A stretch of 24,010 bases of DNA from a virus. Shown one piece after another: positions 1,380 to 20,587 of the stretch. The notes under the pieces are model-generated. The model made no database searches and was not told the DNA's origin. It saw only the letters and a list, made by a program, of their open reading frames with translations. The translations under genes were made by a program, and so were the position numbers. Location of the stretch: positions 1 to 24,010 of the IMG/VR virus record IMGVR_UViG_3300042542_001192. The stretch is one strand, 5' to 3'. Numbering within the stretch: the stretch's first letter is position 1; every line of letters begins with the position of its first letter.

Positions 1380-1567
1380 CGTTTGACGTTGGGGGAATTG
1401 AAGATGCCGGCCATCAGCTCGATGGCGCGGTAGAGCTTGACGACCAGTCGCCGGTAGGTGCCCAGCGCCTCGTTGTCCTTGGGTGTGGGGGTGATGTTCA
1501 CCACCACCACGGCAACGCCATGAATGGCGATGGCCAGATTCACGTAGTCGGCCAGGTGCTTGGTCAC
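1376..1567 (-). CDS. 63-aa small hydrophobic protein (possible holin partner)
   Basis: 63 aa, GTG start with GGAGAG six bases upstream; its first codon overlaps the stop of the 59-aa gene, and its stop overlaps the next ATG (ATGA). Residues about 7-26 (DYVNLAIAIHGVAVVVVNIT) are hydrophobic, followed by TPTPKDNEALG and a basic helix (YRRLVVKLYRAIELMAGIFN). Small proteins with an 'ITPTPKD' turn near lysis or structural genes seem common in T7-like and marine phages from memory, but I know no established function. A membrane-associated lysis accessory is inferred from hydrophobicity and context. Confidence 0.75.
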   Translation of the reverse strand: MTKHLADYVNLAIAIHGVAVVVVNITPTPKDNEALGTYRRLVVKLYRAIELMAGIFNSPNVKR

Positions 1568-1743
1568 AGCTTGCTCTCCACGCTGCGAAGGCGGTCTTCG
1601 TGGTCCTTGAGCATCACCTGGACGCCTTCAAGGATCGTGGTGGTGCGGGACTCAAACCGCCCGAGGCCATTGGCGATCTTCCAGAGCGCCATGACGCCGG
1701 AAGCTCCCAGGCTCACCAATGCGATCACTGAAGCTGGGTCCAC
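1564..1743 (-). CDS. 59-aa membrane-anchored coiled-coil protein (lysis candidate)
   Basis: A GTG-initiated frame of 59 codons: MDPASVIALVSLGASGVMAL, then WKIANGLGRFESRTTTILEG and a charged helical tail ending DRLRSVESKL. Residues 4-24 form one hydrophobic segment; the rest is a likely coiled coil with a heptad-like pattern. The next gene's GTG overlaps its TGA, which supports translation of this frame. One membrane span with a cytoplasmic or periplasmic coil fits a small holin-like or inner-membrane spanin-like protein, and the neighbouring YkuD enzyme makes a lysis role plausible. No Shine-Dalgarno is evident before GTG 1743, so the exact start is uncertain. Confidence 0.65.
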   Translation of the reverse strand: MDPASVIALVSLGASGVMALWKIANGLGRFESRTTTILEGVQVMLKDHEDRLRSVESKL

Positions 1744-1751
1744 GCTGGCAA

Positions 1752-1771
1752 GAGGACTGCACCCATGCAGG
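1752..1771 (+). promoter_or_regulatory. inverted copy of the tail tubular A leader palindrome
   Basis: The plus strand reads GAGGACTGCACCCATGCAGG. The minus strand at 19155-19174 reads the same except for one base (C for the A at position 14). Here it lies in the 35-base gap before the 59-aa gene but in the opposite orientation relative to transcription. It contains CTGCA-N4-TGCAG. Confidence 0.45.
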
Positions 1772-1979: not shown

Positions 1980-2004
1980 GAGTCAGGGGGTGAAGGGAGC
2001 ACCG

Positions 2005-4005
2005 TCACTGGTGCCGTATAAGCAGCCAGCCAAAGCTGTTGCTGCTTGAAACATCAGAATCAACTGTGAATGTCGTTGTGCTTCTTGCGCTGACCCACAG
2101 CCTTTGATTGGCACGGGCTTCAAGAAAGATCAGATAGTTTGCGTCTGCCTCTGCAACCGGCAGAGTCACAACACGTTGCGTTGAAGCTGCAAAGGTTGCT
2201 GTTGAAGCAAGATTGTTTGCGGCAGTATCTCTAGCCGCAATTCCTTGGCACCCTTTAATTGTCAGCGGGCGATACGACGGGCTGTATGACCCAGCTAATT
2301 GCATCCCAATGCCACCAGCTGCGTTGGAATACGCCAGCGAGCCAAGCACCGCACCGTCAGAGTTTCTTCGCAGCCGCAAACCCTTCCCTAAAGCTGAAAT
2401 GCCTACCGTCAATGTATCAAATGTCCCATCCCAATTATCAATGATTAGCCCTTCTTTGTTATACATCTTGGCTGGCCCCATGGGGGAGCCAACACCAACA
2501 AAATCGAGCATCACAACTGGGATGCTTAAAGAGTTCACGATGTAGTTTGTGACGCTAGTGTCCGCGTAGTTGCCAGCGAAGTATGCTGGCAGCTGAACCG
2601 TTGTGCCTGTTCCAGTAAAAGTGGCTGCGTTTGTCAGCCCCTCAAACCTATTATTTGTAATGCGGGTGCCACTTACATGGTAAATAACTGCACCACCATT
2701 CAGTTCGATTCCAGTTGCCGCAGCGGGTGCTTCAAAGAAGTTGCCATCAATTACAACGGCATTGGGCATGTATGCTTGCCCAGCATGGGGGCCAAGCCAG
2801 ACATGCGTTGTAGCTCCGCTGAAAACATTTCCTTGTAGCGTCAAAGCATTTGCAGCACCAGTAGCCTTAACCCCATAAGCCCCAAAGCCCTCAGCACCGC
2901 CCCACGGGCGTACAGAACAGCGCTCAATCCGGCACCAAAAGCAACCGGAGTCTGGATCGGAAGGCGTAAGATTCTCCAGACTGAACGCCGCGTACCCTGC
3001 TGGCAATGACCCGCTAACTACAACACTAACGTCAGAGCATGTAACCAAGCTAGCTCCGATCATTCGGATTCCAGCAACCGCTTGCGTGTTGTTCCGGTGG
3101 TAAATCGTAAAACCTTCTATTCGGCTTTGGTATGGCTGAAATCCACCACGAACATCAAAGGCAGAAATTGCACCGCTGGTTCTGATCTCAGCACCGTAAC
3201 CAGAGATCAGCAGGTTGCGCTCACCCACAAAGCCACCGCCAAGCGGAGCTCCTGTGCGGTTGATCGTGACTTGCGATCCAAACAAGTATTTACCAGGTGG
3301 GAACAATACGGACCCGCCAAGCGTCTCCACAGTGTCGATGGCAGCCTGAACTGCTGCCGCATCATCAGCAACCCCATCACCAACGGCGCCAAAGTCTTTG
3401 ACGCTGACAACATCCTTCAACTTGCTGTCGACAGTGCGAGTGACAGCGCCAGCACCGCTTTGAGTAAACGACAGCTTGCTGGCCACGATGCCAGCGGAAG
3501 CGTTCACATCAGCGTTGACGATTGCACCGTCCTGGATCTTGCCGCTGGTAACCGCACCGTCCTGGATTTTGATTGTGGTGACGGCATCACTTGATAACTT
3601 GTTGGCTGTGATTGACCCGTCTGTGACGTTTGTGTTGGGGTTGATCCCCAATACCTCGATGTAGTCCTTGTGTTCCTGGATAGCGTAGAAGTTCTGCAGG
3701 TCAGCGGTATCCAGCGCATCAGCGGTCAAGGCGCTGCCATCGTTCCAATCCACCAAGCGGCTGGTGGTTGGTGTTTCGCGGCGGATGCTCAGCGTTTGGC
3801 CAACAACCGGCGCGGCACTGAGCTGCACCTGTGTAGCACTCGTCCAGGTGTAGTTGACGCCATCGGCCAGCAGCTGCGTGTACCCCCCGCTCTGCAAGCT
3901 CAACCCGTAGTACAGCTTGACGTGTGCCCGCAGCAGGTACGGGAACGGCACTGTGAACGTGACCGTTGACCCGTTGCCCGGGTACTGCACGTAGGAGAAG
4001 GGCAC
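2005..4005 (-). CDS. tail fibre / tailspike with pectate-lyase-like beta-helix (T7 gp17-type N-terminus)
   Basis: 666 aa. Residues 1-120 resemble the T7 gp17 tail-attachment domain (FTVPFPYLLRAHVKLYYG, then LSIRRETPTTSRLVDWNDGS and ALTADALDTADLQNFYAIQE). Residues about 126-170 are decapeptide repeats (KIQDGAVTSG, KIQDGAIVNA). Residues about 200-530 begin VVSVKDFGAVGDGVADDAAA, the entry of the pectate-lyase-superfamily right-handed beta-helix, as in capsule- or LPS-degrading tailspikes. The C-terminus (SDVSSSNSFGWLLIRHQ) looks like a trimerisation or receptor tip. The start is GTG with no clear Shine-Dalgarno but a hairpin leader. The DNA for the beta-helix and tip (about 2010-3100) is visibly richer in A and T than its neighbours, suggesting exchange of the host-recognition part. 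The substrate cannot be predicted. Confidence 0.93.
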   Translation of the reverse strand: MPFSYVQYPGNGSTVTFTVPFPYLLRAHVKLYYGLSLQSGGYTQLLADGVNYTWTSATQVQLSAAPVVGQTLSIRRETPTTSRLVDWNDGSALTADALDTADLQNFYAIQEHKDYIEVLGINPNTNVTDGSITANKLSSDAVTTIKIQDGAVTSGKIQDGAIVNADVNASAGIVASKLSFTQSGAGAVTRTVDSKLKDVVSVKDFGAVGDGVADDAAAVQAAIDTVETLGGSVLFPPGKYLFGSQVTINRTGAPLGGGFVGERNLLISGYGAEIRTSGAISAFDVRGGFQPYQSRIEGFTIYHRNNTQAVAGIRMIGASLVTCSDVSVVVSGSLPAGYAAFSLENLTPSDPDSGCFWCRIERCSVRPWGGAEGFGAYGVKATGAANALTLQGNVFSGATTHVWLGPHAGQAYMPNAVVIDGNFFEAPAAATGIELNGGAVIYHVSGTRITNNRFEGLTNAATFTGTGTTVQLPAYFAGNYADTSVTNYIVNSLSIPVVMLDFVGVGSPMGPAKMYNKEGLIIDNWDGTFDTLTVGISALGKGLRLRRNSDGAVLGSLAYSNAAGGIGMQLAGSYSPSYRPLTIKGCQGIAARDTAANNLASTATFAASTQRVVTLPVAEADANYLIFLEARANQRLWVSARSTTTFTVDSDVSSSNSFGWLLIRHQ

Positions 4006-4010
4006 GGCTA

Positions 4011-4045
4011 GGTCTGCAGGGCTGTAGACCTATTGTGCCCGCTGC
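4011..4045 (-). promoter_or_regulatory. 35-nt leader element before tail fibre gene
   Basis: The minus strand includes GCAGCG, AGGTCTACAG and CCCTGCAGACC, ending six bases before the tail fibre GTG. It matches the tail tubular A leader (19153-19187) at 24 of 35 positions and can fold as GGTCTACAG / CTGCAGACC with a small loop and one mismatch. No normal Shine-Dalgarno is present here. T7 has a promoter (phi17) at this point, so a phage-polymerase promoter or an RNA hairpin controlling translation are the two main readings. Confidence 0.5.
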
Positions 4046-10642: not shown

Positions 10643-13600
10643 CACTTCACTCCTTTAATGCGGATGCGGCCCGTGCCACGTTGGGTGCTGCCAAATAACT
10701 TGCGGAACGCAGCTGGCGACAGATCAATCACCCTGGGGTCAGTGCGATTGATGGATTGCTCGGTGCCTCCCATCTGCCCAACATCGTTCACCCACACCCG
10801 CACAGACCTGCCGGTGTCGAGGTCTTCTACCGTCACCCACTTGTTCAGATACTTCCCACGCTGAGACCACTGCACAGCAGCCGTCATCTTGTTTGGATCG
10901 TAGATTTCACCATTGGCTGTAGGGCCGCCAGCCACACCATCTGAACCGCCGCTGCCGTTGTAGTAAGTGGCAATGCCCGTAAGGCCGCCGCCGGGTCGCG
11001 TTGTAGGAGTGGCCATGCTGATCTGCGTAGATGAACTGGTTGATCTGCCGCCGCTCACCATGCGACTGGTGACAAACCGACGCAGGCCATCAAAGTCTTG
11101 GTAAGGGGTCATGTCTCTGCTGCCAGCTGGCCGCGGCGCAAGGAAGTCAACCGAAGCAATCGTGCCGTCAGCAGATTTCACATTGCCGGTTCCGCCTTGC
11201 TTGCCAATCAACTGGCCGGCGTTGATCGTTTGCCCCTGGCGCACATAGACCCCGCCATCTGGCAAGTGGCCATAAAGCACATCAACCGTCTGCCCGTTGC
11301 GTGGGTCGGTGGACTCGACAACCACATAGTTCCCATAGCGAGGTTCGCGGCCAACGTCCTTTACCCGACCGGTGAGAACAGCAGGGAACTGCTTGGAGCG
11401 GAACCAGTAATCAACACCGGGCTGGTTGCCTCGCCCTGGGCGCTCGTAGACGACTGACTCAGGCTTCTCAAACTGCCCCGGGCTGCCTGCCGGAAATCTC
11501 TCCGCACCACCCATGAAGCTCGGCGGCAAGGTGGCAGCTGCAGCCGGCGGCGCAATCATGCTCATCAGCCAGCCGCCAGCCGCCAGCGGGTTCCAGCCAC
11601 CAAGCCCATCACGCACGACCGAGCTCACCTGATTGCCGGCCACCGTTCTCGCTGGTCTCTGCTGCCTGATCTTCTCCTCAAGCCAGCGCTTTGCCTCGCC
11701 CTTGGGGTCAAGGGTTGGGTACATCTTCAGCTGTTCCAGCAGGTAGTTGAAGGTGGTGGTATTGGCGCGACGGGCCATGTTGTAGAGCTCGGGGCTCACC
11801 GGCTTGCCGCGCTGCAGCTGCTGCAGTTCCCCGTACACCCACCGCGGCTCCATGACCGGCCGGCTTTGATACGTGCGGATCGTGTCGTCTGAAAGCTTCC
11901 TGGCGCCTTCACGGGGCACCCCGCGGGCATCCCTGGGGTTGGTGCCCACCTTGCGCGGGCCAAGCTCCCCGGGCTGGCGGCCGGTGAGCTCCTTGATGAT
12001 CTGCACATACTGCGGTGACTTGCGGGCCCGAGCCGCCGCTTCCGACATTTCAACGCTGCGCTGCGCGGGGCTGAGCTGACGACCTGGGTTCTCGGCCTTC
12101 CAGTTGCGGATGCCCGTAGACAGTTCTCGCTCGTAGAGCGCCGTGAGCCGATTCGCGGCTGCGGTGAGCTGGGCGTTCTGGTAGGTGGAGGCCACAGCGG
12201 CTGACACCGAAACGCCACTGCCTATCTGACTTGCCATCATCTGAGACAGCATTGGACCCTGCTTGCCGCCGACTTTCTGCTTGTCACGGATCTGGCGAAC
12301 CGCATCGCTATCGAGATCCTGCAGCACCTCCTGTTGCACGCGATCGCGCACACCCGCATCAAAATCAGCCGCACTGGAACGGGCCTTGTCGATCTTGCCG
12401 ACCAATAGCTGGTAGGTTTCTCGCTGCCCTTCCGGTGTTGGCTCCTGGCTTGCAATCTGCTGGGCCTGCCTCAGCGCATTGGCGTAGGCGTTCGGGTCAT
12501 CAGTCCATGCTGATGGCGGCATCATGCCAATCTCAACCGCAAAGTTCTCGGCGAGGAATGGATCGGGCGGCCTGACCACTTGGATGTATTCGCTGCGTTC
12601 TTTCCCACGCCGAATCACATAAGACTCCACATCCAAGAAGCCAAGAGCCGCGGCCTTGATCTGAAAATCTCGGATTGTTGGCAGCCAGTTCGGATCGCCC
12701 CGGGTAAGCCTGCCGGGCCCGGCATCCCAGATCTCATCAACCTTGAGCTTCAGCGTCTGCTGCTTCAAATCGTGCTGCTCTTGCGTGGCCTTCATGCCAC
12801 GCACCTGCAGCTCCTGCATCTCCAGTGGTGCCATGGCACCCCATGTCGGCCGCTTCTCGTAAGGCATCGACGGATCGCCGCCTCGGATGCTCTGCAGCAA
12901 TCCGGCGGCAAACGGCCCGGCGTTGCCATACGTGCCGCCCACCTGTGCGCGGATGTACTGGATCGCACGCGCACGGGCTTCTGGGTCGAGCAACCGCAGC
13001 TGCTGATCCAGTCCCTGCGTGAGCACCGCCGCACCGTATTCACGCCACTCCGCTGTGCCGCGCTTGTAGGTGACGCCATCCACCACAGCGTCGTTTTTCA
13101 GGATCTGATCAACAGTGGCGCCCAGCGCTGCAGTAGCAGCAGACGTTGTTGAATCCTCGACTGCCTTGTTGTAGAACTTCCGCTGCTTGTCGGTGTACTG
13201 CTCAGAGGCCTTGTTGACCCGCGGCGTCACGTAGAAGTTGACCTCCAGCTCGTCGCCGGTCAGCCCGTAGCGACCCAGCGCCTGGCTGGTGAGCTGCACC
13301 TGCCGCGCTTTCAGCGCAGGACTGCCTGGCTTCATCTGTGCCAGTAAGCCAGCACTGTTGACCAGATCGTCCTCCAGGGCGTTTTCGACATCGGCTGCTA
13401 CAAGCTGCGCCACTGCTCGCCGCTGACCGATCAGTGCCCACGGGTTGGATTCCTTCAGCAGTTGCGCTGCCTCTGGGTCGCGCTTCTGCAGCTGGCCAAT
13501 CGTGCTCGCAGCATCCGCTGCACCGGTTTCCGCCTGCACCTGCAGGCTGAGCTGTGCCCGTGCGTATTGGTTGCGGGCCCTGTAGTAGCCCTCCTCGATC

Positions 13601-13869
13601 TTGCCCTTCGCGTAGCTCTCGTATCCCGTCTCTGCCGTTTTCATCAGCGCACTGCTGAACGGCGCCAAGGCTGCAGCCAGTTGCTGGAACTGGTTGAACC
13701 CCTGCACGTTCGTGGTGCCGCTCTGCTGCAGCGTGTCGATCCCACGCGCCGCGGGGAGCTCTACCGGTCGCGCTGGTCCCGGAGTGTCCTGCTGGGCAGC
13801 CTGCACAAACGCGCCGATCGGCCGCGCCGTTGGCGTCACCTGTCCGAATGGCAGCATCCGATCAGCCAT
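10642..13869 (-). CDS. internal virion protein (gp15-like) with M23-like and RlpA-like C-terminus
   Basis: 1075 aa, longer than T7 gp15 (747 aa). Residues 1 to about 780 are mostly helical, Gln/Ala/Arg-rich, in keeping with gp15, which extends the ejection channel through the periplasm. Residues about 817-912 resemble an M23 peptidase domain (PGVDYWF, GNYVVVES, DVLYGHL, INAGQLIGKQGGTG), but the first His ligand is Gln/Pro and the final HLH is replaced by ASVDFLA; D820 and H868 remain, so it is probably not an active zinc peptidase. Residues 962-1075 resemble the RlpA double-psi barrel (GIATYYNG, TANGE, VNDVG, VIDLSPAAFRKLFG), with the acid pair E988 and D1029 kept. An accessory murein-cutting or binding role during DNA entry is inferred. 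The start is three bases after gp14. Confidence 0.85.
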   Translation of the reverse strand: MADRMLPFGQVTPTARPIGAFVQAAQQDTPGPARPVELPAARGIDTLQQSGTTNVQGFNQFQQLAAALAPFSSALMKTAETGYESYAKGKIEEGYYRARNQYARAQLSLQVQAETGAADAASTIGQLQKRDPEAAQLLKESNPWALIGQRRAVAQLVAADVENALEDDLVNSAGLLAQMKPGSPALKARQVQLTSQALGRYGLTGDELEVNFYVTPRVNKASEQYTDKQRKFYNKAVEDSTTSAATAALGATVDQILKNDAVVDGVTYKRGTAEWREYGAAVLTQGLDQQLRLLDPEARARAIQYIRAQVGGTYGNAGPFAAGLLQSIRGGDPSMPYEKRPTWGAMAPLEMQELQVRGMKATQEQHDLKQQTLKLKVDEIWDAGPGRLTRGDPNWLPTIRDFQIKAAALGFLDVESYVIRRGKERSEYIQVVRPPDPFLAENFAVEIGMMPPSAWTDDPNAYANALRQAQQIASQEPTPEGQRETYQLLVGKIDKARSSAADFDAGVRDRVQQEVLQDLDSDAVRQIRDKQKVGGKQGPMLSQMMASQIGSGVSVSAAVASTYQNAQLTAAANRLTALYERELSTGIRNWKAENPGRQLSPAQRSVEMSEAAARARKSPQYVQIIKELTGRQPGELGPRKVGTNPRDARGVPREGARKLSDDTIRTYQSRPVMEPRWVYGELQQLQRGKPVSPELYNMARRANTTTFNYLLEQLKMYPTLDPKGEAKRWLEEKIRQQRPARTVAGNQVSSVVRDGLGGWNPLAAGGWLMSMIAPPAAAATLPPSFMGGAERFPAGSPGQFEKPESVVYERPGRGNQPGVDYWFRSKQFPAVLTGRVKDVGREPRYGNYVVVESTDPRNGQTVDVLYGHLPDGGVYVRQGQTINAGQLIGKQGGTGNVKSADGTIASVDFLAPRPAGSRDMTPYQDFDGLRRFVTSRMVSGGRSTSSSTQISMATPTTRPGGGLTGIATYYNGSGGSDGVAGGPTANGEIYDPNKMTAAVQWSQRGKYLNKWVTVEDLDTGRSVRVWVNDVGQMGGTEQSINRTDPRVIDLSPAAFRKLFGSTQRGTGRIRIKGVK

Positions 13870-14754: not shown

Positions 14755-15212
14755 CAGGCTGCCCTCCAGAAGTGGCAGAACAGCTGGCAGCTGCGCCCCA
14801 TCGGCTCAGGCGTGTCGATCGTGAACCCGAGATGCCGCAGCCATCGCAGCGTGGTCAGGTTGCTCGCCAGCGCCCAGTTCTCCAGATACCGAAAGCCGTG
14901 CCGCTCAAACAGCGAATCCACCCACCGCCGACCTTCCCGCAGAAACTGACGCCGATTACCGGCAGTGGCCAACAGCTCATCGGTGGCCAGCAGCCAGATC
15001 ACGCTGCCCCCGTCGCCACCGACGCCACAGATGCCCACAGCGCTCCCGTCTTCTGCACCAATGCAACGACAGATTGAGGACATGCGCCAGCTCTCTTGCA
15101 CGGCCAATTCTGCCGTCAGCTGGTGGCTGTAGAGGACTTCCAGCCGATCCTGGTAACGCATCCGCTCGGCAATGCGCTGCACCCCTGCAGGTGTTGGTTC
15201 AGTCCACCTCAT
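14754..15212 (-). CDS. gp13-like virion-associated protein (DUF2833 / GNAT-like)
   Basis: 152 aa, close to T7 gp13 (138 aa). The frame opens upstream, but ATG 15212 is chosen because GAGGAG lies six bases before it and it overlaps the tail tubular B stop in an AATGA arrangement. The sequence resembles the DUF2833/gp13 family, which has an acetyltransferase-like fold: RIAERMRYQDRLEV near the N-terminus, a central strand GSAVGICGVGGDGGSVIWLL, and a C-terminal helix-strand pair (ENWALASNLTTLRWLRHLGF) like the end of GNAT domains. In T7, gp13 is needed for proper internal virion protein assembly; its enzymatic activity, if any, is unproven. The position between gp12 and gp14 supports the call. 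Confidence 0.82.
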   Translation of the reverse strand: MRWTEPTPAGVQRIAERMRYQDRLEVLYSHQLTAELAVQESWRMSSICRCIGAEDGSAVGICGVGGDGGSVIWLLATDELLATAGNRRQFLREGRRWVDSLFERHGFRYLENWALASNLTTLRWLRHLGFTIDTPEPMGRSCQLFCHFWRAA

Positions 15213-18200: not shown

Positions 18201-18499
18201 GCGACGGTGACCGTCCGCTCGACGCCCGTCAGATCAAACACCCGGATGGCCGTCTTGCTGATCACCGCCAGGTACTGCTCGGTGGCATCGCGCAGGATCT
18301 GATGGAAGAACACGTCGCCGAAGCTGGTGGTGCTCACCCGTGCGATGCAGCTGCTGCCTTCGCGCTTGCGCAGCCCCTCCGCAGCAGAGCTCATCCCATT
18401 GATCTGCACCTCACCTTGTGTGGGGTCGCGCTGAGCATCCGGTTGCTGGCTGATCCCCTGGAACAGATTGGGGATGGAATAGGAGACGAGATCAGCCAC
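15209..18499 (-). CDS. tail tubular protein B (T7 gp12-like nozzle) with triple insert
   Basis: 1096 aa, far longer than T7 gp12 (about 794 aa). The protein forms the hexameric tail nozzle below the gp11 ring. I start it at GTG 18499 because the product then begins MADLVSYSIPNLFQGISQQP, matching the T7 gp12 N-terminus with its GISQQPD and NGxSS signatures; the open frame extends 11 codons further up but lies inside tail tubular A. Residues about 221-426 hold three tandem copies of a 62-73-residue beta module (TLNGT, then SGLTVNVTGNG, then GSGYRAG), followed by a degenerate stretch to about 475, all apparently inserted between the family blocks NRVSTAEIAARLRGAL and SVQAFTELPTIAPSGYQIEV. Residues 520-1096 (KNRLGFLADENVILSRARDF, SDQIQFRF, and so on) are standard nozzle sequence. 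Confidence 0.94.
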   Translation of the reverse strand: MADLVSYSIPNLFQGISQQPDAQRDPTQGEVQINGMSSAAEGLRKREGSSCIARVSTTSFGDVFFHQILRDATEQYLAVISKTAIRVFDLTGVERTVTVASGAFSYLSSVVSAKADIRAASIADYTFISNTKAVPAMDTALAPAVARPAANEALVWVKAANYGQRYTLNINSQQVTVATAVAPVVVNGSTTTENRVSTAEIAARLRGALLGGAPSAITVQGSATTLNGTVTGTATTTDEGGSGLTVNVTGNGSVITAAAINVAGSGYRAGDRVFVQRGLLNGGAVTALNNEGAGSTLNGTLIDVPTTGGSGSGLTVTITGDGAKLTATVVGNNPGSGYRADGAISVARNRLQGGPVSTLSNQGATTTLNATATGLATTTNTGGTGLTLNVTGNGTAVTAITVNAAGVRYHIGSKIYIARNVLDGSGSDTTQVHVATITAVTNSDTTAMQIATVKAHVIDETAVQVATVSTAAAGPLTGVTIARSGSVLHLTSSSAITLAATDARANADITAITNSVQAFTELPTIAPSGYQIEVVGDPGNKFDGYYVSFTCRSGTFGEGSWQETVSPGVEYRIDQGTMPHLLVRLPTGAFWFGPANGAIVSGVTIPTWGQRTAGDYETAPDPSFIGQPIQDVFIYKNRLGFLADENVILSRARDFFEFFPETVTAILDSDPIDLAASNNRVSVLRYAVPYQDELIIFSDQIQFRFNAAETVLTPSTAQITVLTSYEMDPNCRPIPVQGTIVFCMANGQWSQFREFSVRGAGTALIADASDLTMAVSSYIPSGTFKLTANDTGNAWFAISSASGYQKRIYVYKYLYRNTGGGVERAQSSWSHWELSGADEILSILCVEEVLYLLVRYGTEVWLESMPVTDRMTSASPSPSLLLLDRTVTTTTATPVALRVAAGTYNAVQNTTTWTLPYTIQALTQAWSGWTATVNGGVLLGQASSGNTITAFGNWSTAPVFFGEAFTFRYRFTRFKLYRDIGGGKTAANVMRTQVRHAKLRYHETFYFRVQVMAERRDAATYTFDGTILGSRNSLIGSSLNQAEAEAMRYAEGVFRIPINSRGENCVVELLNDTPHPCKFSSCEWVGLMTGQARSLQ
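17222..17839 (-). repeat. three tandem coding repeats inside tail tubular B
   Basis: Copies are residues 221-293, 294-364 and 365-426 of the protein (17621-17839, 17408-17620, 17222-17407). Each has a TLNxT entry, a GGSGLTVNVTGNG-like strand pair, a GSGYRAGDRVFV-like strand and an LxGGxVTALxNxGA exit. Copy 3 is the most diverged (VRYHIGSKIYIARN replaces the GSGYRAG region). They are protein-level repeats, not near-identical DNA, so the duplication is old or under selection to diverge. Confidence 0.85.
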
Positions 18500-19148
18500 G
18501 CAGGTAGCCCCGGTTGCGGCCCAGCAGACCAAGACCTGGCGAGTAGGTGGGGAACGGCCTCATCCCGGGACCGCCGGTCAGGCTGTTCGCCTGCAGCTGA
18601 TCCATCTCAACCGCCTGCAGCGCTGTCAACGCCGCCTGCTCATCCACCGCCGTGTACCGGAACGAGGAGGAGTCGCCCAGCACGCGACCGCTGAACACCC
18701 GCGCTGAGCGGATCGTCACCCATCGGTTGAACGCTTCAGGGCTCTCGTCCCACGACAAGAGGAACACCACATCAGCCTTGAGGGATGTGACATCACTGCC
18801 CAGGGAATAGGTGCGCTTCTCGCGGTCGTACACCCGCTGGCCGCGCAGCTGAAACCGGCCGGCCCACTCGTAGGCATCCGCGGCCCACCTGACCACATTG
18901 GTCGGCACCACGATCTCGTTGTTGTTGTCCTTGGTGAACTCGTAGGCCTGTTCGCTGTTCCAGCTCCAGCCGTTGACCTGCCCCTCCTTGTGGAACTCCA
19001 GCAGGGTGCGCTCAGCCATCGAGGCCTCAACGATCTGCTGGGTTTCCAGCGTGTTGACCGGCTGCTCGCCGATCACGGCCAGCAGGGTATTGACCGCTTC
19101 CAGCAGGGTCGTGCGGCCCGGCGTCACTGCCTGGTTGGAGATCGGCAC
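18492..19148 (-). CDS. tail tubular protein A (T7 gp11-like, gatekeeper)
   Basis: 218 aa, near the 196 aa of T7 gp11. It forms the dodecameric adaptor ring under the portal that holds the DNA in and carries the nozzle. Family-like features are the N-terminal TLLEAVNTLLAVIGEQPVNT segment, the EFHKEGQVNGWSWNSEQAYE motif (residues 51-70) and the central FLLSWDESPEAFNRWVTIRS stretch followed by ARVFSGRVLG. The start is GTG with a weak GCAGG six bases upstream; no ATG lies upstream in frame, so this start is the best available. It follows the capsid terminator, and its last codons overlap tail tubular B by eight bases. Confidence 0.94.
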   Translation of the reverse strand: MPISNQAVTPGRTTLLEAVNTLLAVIGEQPVNTLETQQIVEASMAERTLLEFHKEGQVNGWSWNSEQAYEFTKDNNNEIVVPTNVVRWAADAYEWAGRFQLRGQRVYDREKRTYSLGSDVTSLKADVVFLLSWDESPEAFNRWVTIRSARVFSGRVLGDSSSFRYTAVDEQAALTALQAVEMDQLQANSLTGGPGMRPFPTYSPGLGLLGRNRGYLRG

Positions 19149-19152
19149 GACT

Positions 19153-19187
19153 GGCCTGCAGGGGTGCAGTCCTCATGCTATCGCTGC
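19153..19187 (-). promoter_or_regulatory. 35-nt leader element before tail tubular A gene
   Basis: The minus strand runs from GCAGCG through AGGACTGCACCCCTGCAGGCC and ends four bases before the GTG start. Aligned without gaps to the leader of the tail fibre gene (4011-4045), 24 of 35 bases match, including the six-base GCAGCG and the block CCCTGCAG. It contains a CTGCA-CCCC-TGCAG hairpin. It lies just after the terminator, where a new promoter or a translation-control hairpin would make sense. Confidence 0.5.
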
Positions 19188-19191
19188 CAGC

Positions 19192-19221
19192 AAAAAGCCC
19201 CCCGCCAAAACGGCAGGGGGC
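19192..19221 (-). terminator. intrinsic terminator after capsid gene (Tphi-like position)
   Basis: The minus strand reads GCCCCCTGCC, loop GTTTT, then GGCGGGGGGC and five T residues. The ten-pair stem (one G-T pair) plus T-run is a textbook rho-independent terminator. It sits 34 bases after the capsid stop and before tail tubular A, the position of the single late terminator Tphi in T7, where partial read-through sets a high ratio of capsid to tail transcripts. Confidence 0.9.
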
Positions 19222-19255
19222 AGTTCCCCATCGACCCATCGGGATCGGTTGGAGT

Positions 19256-20500
19256 TTAGGGGATCTCGATGACCCCGGCGCACTCAGGCCGCAACACGCT
19301 CATGCCGATCGCCATGCGAGCAACCATCAGCGTGGCCTGGTACATGATGTTGAAATCCCCTCCCTGGGGCGTGACCTGCAGGCCGATGTTCTTCAGGGTG
19401 AGAACACCGATCGCGTCTTTGTGGAACACCATGCCGCGACACTTCGACAGATCCTGCTGATAGGCAGTGTTCCGATCGAGCGTGTTGTTGGTGTACGCCG
19501 GCTGGGTGACGTGGTTGGACCACATCACCGGGATGCCCTTGACGCGCATGATGCGACCTTCGGCAATGGTGCCGTTGCCGCCACCGGCGCCGTTGAAGTC
19601 GGCGTTGATCGCCCTGGTTGAATCCAGAAGGCAGTCATACTCCGACGGGGGCACCACGGCGATCATGTCCTCAACGGGCACGTCCTTGGCCTGCATCTGC
19701 ACCTTCAGTGCCGAGATGGCAGCAATCAGGCTGTCACCACGGCTGTTGGTGGTGGCAGTGGTGTAGCCGGCAGGCAGGGTCTGGGTCTGGCCAATGCGGC
19801 CAGCGCTCGGACCGCCAACGGCAGTCACCGTGGTGGAGGCTGCCGTCTGCGACACCGACACCGTGTAGGTGCCGCGCAGACCGATTGCATCGCCGCTGGT
19901 CTGGGTCAGCTGGGCGGTGATCACGGTGCCGGCGGTGATGCCGCTACCGCTGATCGTCTGTCCCGGGTAGATGCGACCGCTGGTGACAGCGGTGACGGTC
20001 AGGGTGGTCGTGGCAATCGAGCCGGTCACCACCGCACCACCACCGGAGAGCAGCGGTTCCGTTGTGGTCTTGGCTGCGCCAAAGATCACGCGGGCGGCCC
20101 GCTGGTCCCACTCCCGAGCCAGTGCCTGGCCGAGCTGATGGGTCAGGTCTTGCCGCTGGTCCACGTAATTCATGAGCTCGTCGAGCTCATAGATCACTTC
20201 GGACGCAACCAGCAGACCATCGAGGTTGATGATGTACTCGTTGCGGTCAGCGTTGGTGGCGCTGGGATCGCCCAGAATCGCGGTGCCAGGTGTGTGATAC
20301 GAAGCCGTGTGGCGGCCGGTCACCTGGAAGGCAGCGCTCTTGCCGCCGCGGATGTTGCGCTCCTTGACCTTGCCCTTGAACACGCATTTGCGGTCGAAGG
20401 CGTCAAGAATCTCGGTCATGCCGAGCTTCAGGAACAGGGCATTGACATCCCCTGCCTGTTTGATCTGACCAAGACGGTCGAGGTTGGTGAGACTGGTCAC
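19256..20500 (-). CDS. major capsid protein (T7 gp10-like) with extra beta domain
   Basis: 414 aa; T7 gp10A is 345 aa. It forms the HK97-fold shell. The N-arm and E-loop region (residues about 45-95), a spine-helix-like stretch ([20 protein letters not shown], 122-141), the P-domain block [20 protein letters not shown] (253-272) and the C-terminal [20 protein letters not shown] (386-405) fit the T7-type shell protein. Residues about 161-227 are a Thr/Val/Gly-rich beta segment ([11 protein letters not shown] to [18 protein letters not shown]) that looks inserted and resembles modules seen in phage surface proteins. The start is GTG; the nearest AGGAG (20520-20524) is 19 bases upstream, so initiation is unusual. 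A strong terminator follows the gene. Confidence 0.95.
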
Positions 20501-20551
20501 TGGTTTAAGTGATTGTCAGCTCCTGCCTCACAGATCGCCGAGTCGGGGTGT

Positions 20552-20563
20552 CTCCCGAAGGAG
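20552..20563 (-). promoter_or_regulatory. UUCG-tetraloop hairpin in capsid leader
   Basis: The minus strand reads CTCCTTCGGGAG: four perfect pairs closed by a TTCG loop, a very stable RNA hairpin. There is no T-run after it, so it is not a classical terminator. It lies 52 bases before the capsid GTG start and could be an mRNA stabilising or processing structure. Confidence 0.45.
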
Positions 20564-20573
20564 GCCCGTTCAA

Positions 20574-20587
20574 CTGCACTGCTGCAG
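20574..20587 (-). promoter_or_regulatory. CTGCA-N4-TGCAG palindrome in scaffold-capsid gap
   Basis: On the minus strand this reads CTGCAGCAGTGCAG, a five-base inverted repeat around a four-base loop, located between the scaffold stop and the capsid start. Similar palindromes lie just before the tail tubular A, tail fibre and 59-aa genes and just inside the gp13-like gene. Role unknown: phage promoter part, protein-binding site or RNA hairpin. Confidence 0.35.

Follow-up and report, generated by a model that had tools for sequence, protein, structure and literature searches.

The window, by which we mean the whole stretch of 24,010 nucleotides analysed here (positions 1 to 24,010 of virus record IMGVR_UViG_3300042542_001192), carries on its minus strand the structural genes of a T7-like cyanophage, encoding the portal, scaffold, major capsid, tail tubular A, internal virion and tail fibre proteins. 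Its nearest named relatives are the uncultured MedDCM phages S37-C6, S31-C1 and S38-C3 (hereafter S37C6, S31C1 and S38C3) and Synechococcus phage S-SRP02, whose tail tubular A is 77% identical. The genes that concern us are the following.

18492..19148, minus strand: tail tubular protein A gene (T7 gp11-like), GTG start; phrog_446, E 2e-42
2005..4005, minus strand: tail fibre gene (T7 gp17 N-terminal domain), GTG start
19256..20500, minus strand: major capsid protein gene; phrog_267
1564..1743, minus strand: holin-like ORF of 59 aa, GTG start; one putative membrane segment and a coiled coil (by eye)

Since the 59-aa ORF matched no Pfam family, its name is inferred from these features. Past it, in the late region at 46-564 on the minus strand, lies an L,D-transpeptidase (YkuD) domain (E 1.4e-9), and the protein is possibly a lysis enzyme. 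The GC content of positions 2001-4000, the tail fibre region, is 0.54, compared to 0.62-0.67 elsewhere in the window, which suggests that this region has a different origin. No prophage carrying this tail tubular A gene turned up in a search of contigs from bacterial and archaeal genomes.

The original prediction, made from the letters of the window alone, held that the leaders of the tail tubular A and tail fibre genes share a 35-nt element, aligned without gaps at 24 positions. The match is real, and on recounting, minus-strand positions 19187-19153 and 4045-4011 proved identical at 25 of 35 positions, again ungapped. When the best 35-nt match was sought between the two 60-nt leaders it scored these 25, whereas 397 random pairs of 60-nt stretches of the window gave a mean of 17.0 and a maximum of 22, none of them (0/397) reaching 25. 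Both elements end shortly before a GTG, as had been described, lying 4 and 5 nt ahead of the starts at 19148 and 4005. The GAGG of the tail tubular A leader stands about 22 nt before the GTG, too distant for an ordinary Shine-Dalgarno. The dyad written as CTRCA-N4-TGCAG is present in both leaders, although A faces C at one pair of the tail fibre copy. The parts of the two elements are as follows.

19174..19180, minus strand: tail tubular A element, upstream box TAGCATG (consensus YANMATG), with A at -10 and T at -6 kept
19156..19169, minus strand: tail tubular A element, dyad core CTGCACCCCTGCAG, in the same register in 89/89 distinct leaders
4031..4037, minus strand: tail fibre element, upstream box CACAATA
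4014..4027, minus strand: tail fibre element, dyad core CTACAGCCCTGCAG, scoring p=0.012 within the window

For comparison, 160 viral loci were collected by their tail tubular A protein and pooled with the four named phages, yielding 89 distinct alignable leaders, a set from which loci with less than 70 nt upstream or with a match starting after residue 14 were left out. All 89 carry one ungapped 28-nt unit, YANMATG-N4-CWRCR-N4-YGYAG, in a single register 2-8 nt ahead of the tail tubular A start, and this element stays constant while the region between the capsid gene and the terminator described below varies. Among the 77 distinct elements (36-mers), G11 and A13 of the core are invariant (77/77) and C4 is found in 73; in the upstream box, A at -10 and T at -6 are each kept in 72 of 77. 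The right half of the core is more conserved than the left, and the mirror positions of G11 and A13 are not invariant. The elements fall into two sequence classes, TGCAC...TGCAG in the window, S-SRP02, S38C3 and their relatives, and ACR...YGTAG in S37C6, S31C1 and theirs, and both half-sites of the core switch together between the classes.

The tail fibre copies were scored out-of-sample, with a weight matrix trained on the tail tubular A cores alone; the denominators of this and the other leader tests exclude genomes lacking an identified gene or a leader of sufficient length. Every tail fibre leader scored at p<0.05 (25/25) and 18/25 at p<0.01. The core is sense-oriented there in 7 of 8 genomes of the ACG/CGTAG phages; in the TGCAC phages its orientation is ambiguous, the core being nearly palindromic with central bases that run either way, and the antisense score too reaches p<0.01 in 18/25 tail fibre leaders, drawn from both classes. 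Moreover, the class switches jointly at tail tubular A and tail fibre. Loss of the element from these two genes in close relatives had been named as the observation that would speak against it; it was found at both genes in every relative tested. The element is a real, strongly conserved and repeated late-gene control element, which agrees with the earlier view of it as a lineage-specific one.

Such conservation bears directly on the idea that the two leaders share merely a duplicated or recombined segment devoid of function. The lower GC of the tail fibre region and the L135-like phages, in which other sequence has taken the place of that upstream of the element and the match begins at the element, would fit that idea, but the element is kept in 89/89 and 25/25 leaders despite strongly diverged proteins; we regard functionless residual homology as refuted by this conservation, and any chance left to it as minute. 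Most close relatives (L135-L148) differ from the window upstream of the tail fibre element, and because the common sequence begins at the element's GGCACAATAGG, a recombination joint is placed at this element.

Between the major capsid and tail tubular A genes lies a further feature.

19192..19221, minus strand: intrinsic terminator in the major capsid / tail tubular A gap, an 11-pair stem followed by TTTTT

It is the sole terminator-like site in 19100-19330, where shuffled sequences gave a mean of 0.1, and it shows the GC-rich stem and subsequent T run of an intrinsic terminator just upstream of the tail tubular A element. A counterpart was detected by a strict rule in 60 of the 89 relatives; of the 29 leaders that this rule missed, 25 have a T5+ run by reading, bringing leaders with such a run to 85/89. 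The distance from the terminator to the tail tubular A start codon is about 40 nt, with little there besides the element. Transcription ended by this terminator would need a new start before tail tubular A, and the element, standing between terminator and start codon, is the place for it.

Copies of the core were also found at other genes, which the original prediction had not mentioned, and those in the window are listed here together with a hairpin that accompanies one of them.

20574..20587, minus strand: major capsid leader, dyad core CTGCAGCAGTGCAG at the T7 phi10 position, rank 2 of 23,997 positions, p=0.0075
20544..20568, minus strand: conserved hairpin CGGGCCTCCTTCGGGAGACACCCCG just downstream of the capsid-leader core
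1757..1770, minus strand: dyad core CTGCATGGGTGCAG ahead of the holin-like gene, with a same-gene match in SRP02, G003, G007 and G027
15177..15190, minus strand: doubtful core copy (CTGCACCCCTGCAG on the plus strand) inside the start of the gp13-like gene, at the T7 phi13 position

With a symmetrised matrix, 14/27 capsid leaders and 15/25 leaders at the position after the exonuclease gene scored at p<0.05. In the capsid leader the spacing to the upstream box differs by 3 nt, and a clear copy is absent in most ACG/CGTAG genomes as well as some marine TGCAC genomes. Right after the capsid-leader core, relatives keep the hairpin in the form GGCCTCCTTCGGGAGATACC / GGCCCCTGCGGGGATAACC; a similar hairpin is seen in the capsid leaders of S37C6 and S31C1, where the core itself is unclear. 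The RNA polymerase leader gave a weaker signal (13/21 sense and 9/21 antisense at p<0.05, weight matrix). A whole-window search returned an additional match at 1748-1771 on the opposite strand, which is palindromic and therefore also reads on the minus strand before the small holin-like gene; this copy is present in five of the six genomes matched for the gene, the window included, and the remaining match, in G004 at 30% identity, probably does not represent an orthologue. A core copy at 11-12 of 12 positions lies within the opening codons of the gp13-like gene in the window (15177-15190), in L083 (31627-31640) and in G003, G004 and G005; the specific codons are kept only in the freshwater group and lost in the others, and the protein sequence may explain this copy by coding alone. 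We make no claim for a copy before the MarR-like gene, whose leaders showed no significant enrichment of the core (4/18 at p<0.05, weight matrix).

At the level of whole genomes, intergenic core matches at 10 or more of 12 positions number 7 in S-SRP02, compared to 0.25 for permuted consensus sequences, and 10 in S38C3, compared to 0.11. The same threshold for the TGCAC core gave 0 intergenic matches in S31C1 and 2 in S37C6, both of which carry the other class; in S37C6 the three best-scoring sites genome-wide are all intergenic and lie in the leaders of tail tubular A and tail fibre and in the gap after the exonuclease gene. The same motif is repeated before middle and late operons within one genome.

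The original prediction offered two interpretations, a start site for a phage polymerase or a hairpin that loops out so that the upstream GAGG comes near the GTG, and of these the former has gained support and the latter has not. More broadly, an RNA hairpin in the leader might present GAGG to the start codon or might protect or process late mRNAs. It is in favor of such a function that standard base pairs form at core positions 3-12 in 69% and at 5-10 in 94% of 49 distinct cores, a level that column shuffles reached in 0/1000 trials each (relatedness being ignored), and that the stem is part of the folds of the window's two leaders (-10.4 and -11.8 kcal/mol). However, much of this pairing is accounted for by two clades, and the compensatory changes that had been proposed as a sign of a hairpin appear at two of five pairs only, the second pair (2-13) being A-A in 27/49 distinct cores. 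The core stem belongs to the best fold in just 27/77 elements, with a mean z of -0.56, and a long distance separates core and start codon in capsid and post-exonuclease leaders, about 75 nt in the case of the capsid-leader dyad. Nor does an RNA stem predict the greater conservation of the right half, and no Rfam family matches the element. With the stem broken in most sequences, a hairpin as the main function was rejected, and the reading as a whole appears quite improbable.

Another possibility lies in the host machinery. YANMATG could be a -10 hexamer for the cyanobacterial polymerase, working without a -35, and the core could be bound by a dimeric phage regulator, e.g., a MarR-like protein, which would silence late genes in lysogeny. 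Box 1 agrees with TATAAT at 4 or 5 of 6 positions in 78/89 leaders, the core is dyad-symmetric with half-sites that change together, and in almost every complete relative genes for a MarR-like protein and an integrase neighbour the polymerase gene. Furthermore, a role for MarR at phage promoters has been proposed for phage LUZ100 (PMC10134795). Yet a -35 hexamer at a spacing of 16-18 occurs in 1/89 leaders, below the shuffles (11), and none was found near the window's tail tubular A leader; hence a classical sigma-70 promoter with a -35 was discarded, the -10-like box itself being real. The window's tail fibre leader does contain a TGGACA-18-CACAAT match, but TGGACA is absent from most window-like tail fibre leaders, whose upstream sequence differs. 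The core also occurs without the box in the capsid and polymerase leaders, its invariant A13 and G11 have mirror positions that vary, and the MarR gene has its own distinct conserved palindrome, ACTCCTAGGAGT, about 25 nt upstream, in leaders where the core is not significantly enriched. Taken together, we consider the combination of host-type promoter and operator unlikely.

The palindrome, in the form ACTCCTAGGAGT(CG), was seen about 25 nt before the MarR-like gene in L083 (about 13570-13625) and in the MarR leaders of G001, G003, G004, G005, G007 and G027, and it is a candidate MarR operator, distinct from the late element. A separate observation concerns the RNA polymerase leaders L231-L242, in which a stretch resembling a tRNA anticodon arm lies slightly upstream of the first motif copy. 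By eye, the anticodon would be CAT in L231, L235, L237 and L238 and TAA in L232-L234, L236 and L239-L242, and the stretch could be an attachment site for the integrase, one that varies among closely related phages.

On the sequence evidence assembled here, the element is probably a lineage-specific late promoter of the phage's own T7-type single-subunit RNA polymerase. This promoter reading is supported by its conservation at both genes, by the tail tubular A copy directly after a terminator, by positions like those of T7 promoters and by intact polymerases. The polymerase gene lies outside the window and was seen in relatives, the S-SRP02 enzyme matching T7 RNAP at E 2e-52; the T7 catalytic residues D537, K631, Y639, H811 and D812 are kept in 22/22 aligned lineage polymerases. 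Their specificity loops come in two styles that match TGCAC/TGCAG and ACG/CGTAG, a correspondence that follows phylogeny and is not independent evidence. Transcription would end at the intrinsic terminator after the capsid gene and restart at the element before tail tubular A, with the second element copy providing a separate start for the tail fibre, and the other copies would drive the capsid gene, the holin-like gene, the genes that follow the exonuclease and probably also the polymerase gene. What the polymerase recognises in common would be the 14-bp core (CWRCR-N4-YGYAG), assisted at tail tubular A and tail fibre by the AT-rich upstream box YANMATG. A start near the 3′ end of the core would produce very short leaders for the tail genes and a capsid leader opening with the hairpin. 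Recognition by the phage polymerase, the start site and the strength are what we infer from this arrangement.

Several features count against the promoter reading. The TGCAC core is near-palindromic, whereas a one-subunit polymerase needs no dyad, and the joint change of half-sites suits a dimer or a hairpin. Further points against it are the 3-nt difference in upstream-box spacing at the capsid leader, the genomes that have no clear capsid-leader copy, the scant or absent enrichment of the TGCAC core in S31C1 and S37C6, and the non-significant result at the MarR leaders. A near-perfect dyad core whose half-sites change jointly is not known for T7-family promoters. It is because of the dyad and the joint change that the operator described above is kept in consideration, as is a promoter that depends on its dyad. 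In the latter case, a T7-type polymerase would use dyad-built promoters whose half-sites drift together (TGCAC/GTGCA vs. TACG/CGTA), the dyad being extruded as a hairpin, as in phage N4, or doubling as the operator of a lysogeny regulator that shuts all late operons in temperate T7-like cyanophages; we judge this unlikely.

T7 has class III promoters phi10, phi13 and phi17 and the terminator T-phi, and its capsid mRNA begins with a hairpin. The lineage resembles T7 in its copies before the capsid and tail fibre genes, which fall at the places of phi10 and phi17, in a terminator after the capsid gene, in a single-subunit RNA polymerase (in relatives) and in a capsid-leader hairpin that starts a few nt after the core. 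On the contrary, the element is unrelated to TAATACGACTCACTATAG, an extra copy stands before tail tubular A for the restart, and the core is an imperfect dyad. The virion RNA polymerase of phage N4, also of the T7 family, uses hairpin promoters; a short stem with a small loop as a promoter part is common to both, although the stem is broken in most members of the lineage. Syn5 is a cyanophage with a T7-type polymerase as well, whose promoter has been described as ATTGGGCACCCGTAA, and a GCACCYGT-like stretch is common to it and the TGCAC class, as is CCCGTA to it and the other class. However, the Syn5 promoter occurs twice in the Syn5 genome, one copy lying inside the polymerase gene and none at tail leaders. 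No match to ATTGGGCACCCGTAA was found in the window within 3 mismatches, a search that recovered both Syn5 copies as a control, and the 27 lineage genomes yielded one match at up to 2 mismatches (G015), away from these leaders; a Syn5-type promoter is therefore absent from the lineage leaders. The distant temperate T7-like Pseudomonas phage LUZ100, for which transcripts have been mapped, has phage promoters before and after the polymerase gene, a local promoter at the capsid gene and, behind this gene, a strong terminator (PMC10134795). It resembles the lineage in its temperate-type, T7-like genome, which encodes MarR, integrase and RNA polymerase, and in its layout of promoters and terminator; its motif AATTACCACACAG...GGA differs in having no dyad, and no phage promoter is annotated before tail tubular A or tail fibre.

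Among cyanophage T7-type polymerases, Syn5 is the one for which we found a promoter described in print. In the papers that our literature searches brought up, neither the element nor any promoter of the S-SRP02/Oinezvirus/Nohivirus group is described, and a word search of the text of the S-SRP02 paper returned no mention of promoters. The element is a ready, testable candidate promoter for a new group of polymerases, and it marks out transcription units in uncultured cyanophages from both fresh and marine waters. A restart straight after the capsid terminator would be a clear variation on the T7 plan, and a dyad in two sequence classes raises the question of how promoter and polymerase have co-evolved.
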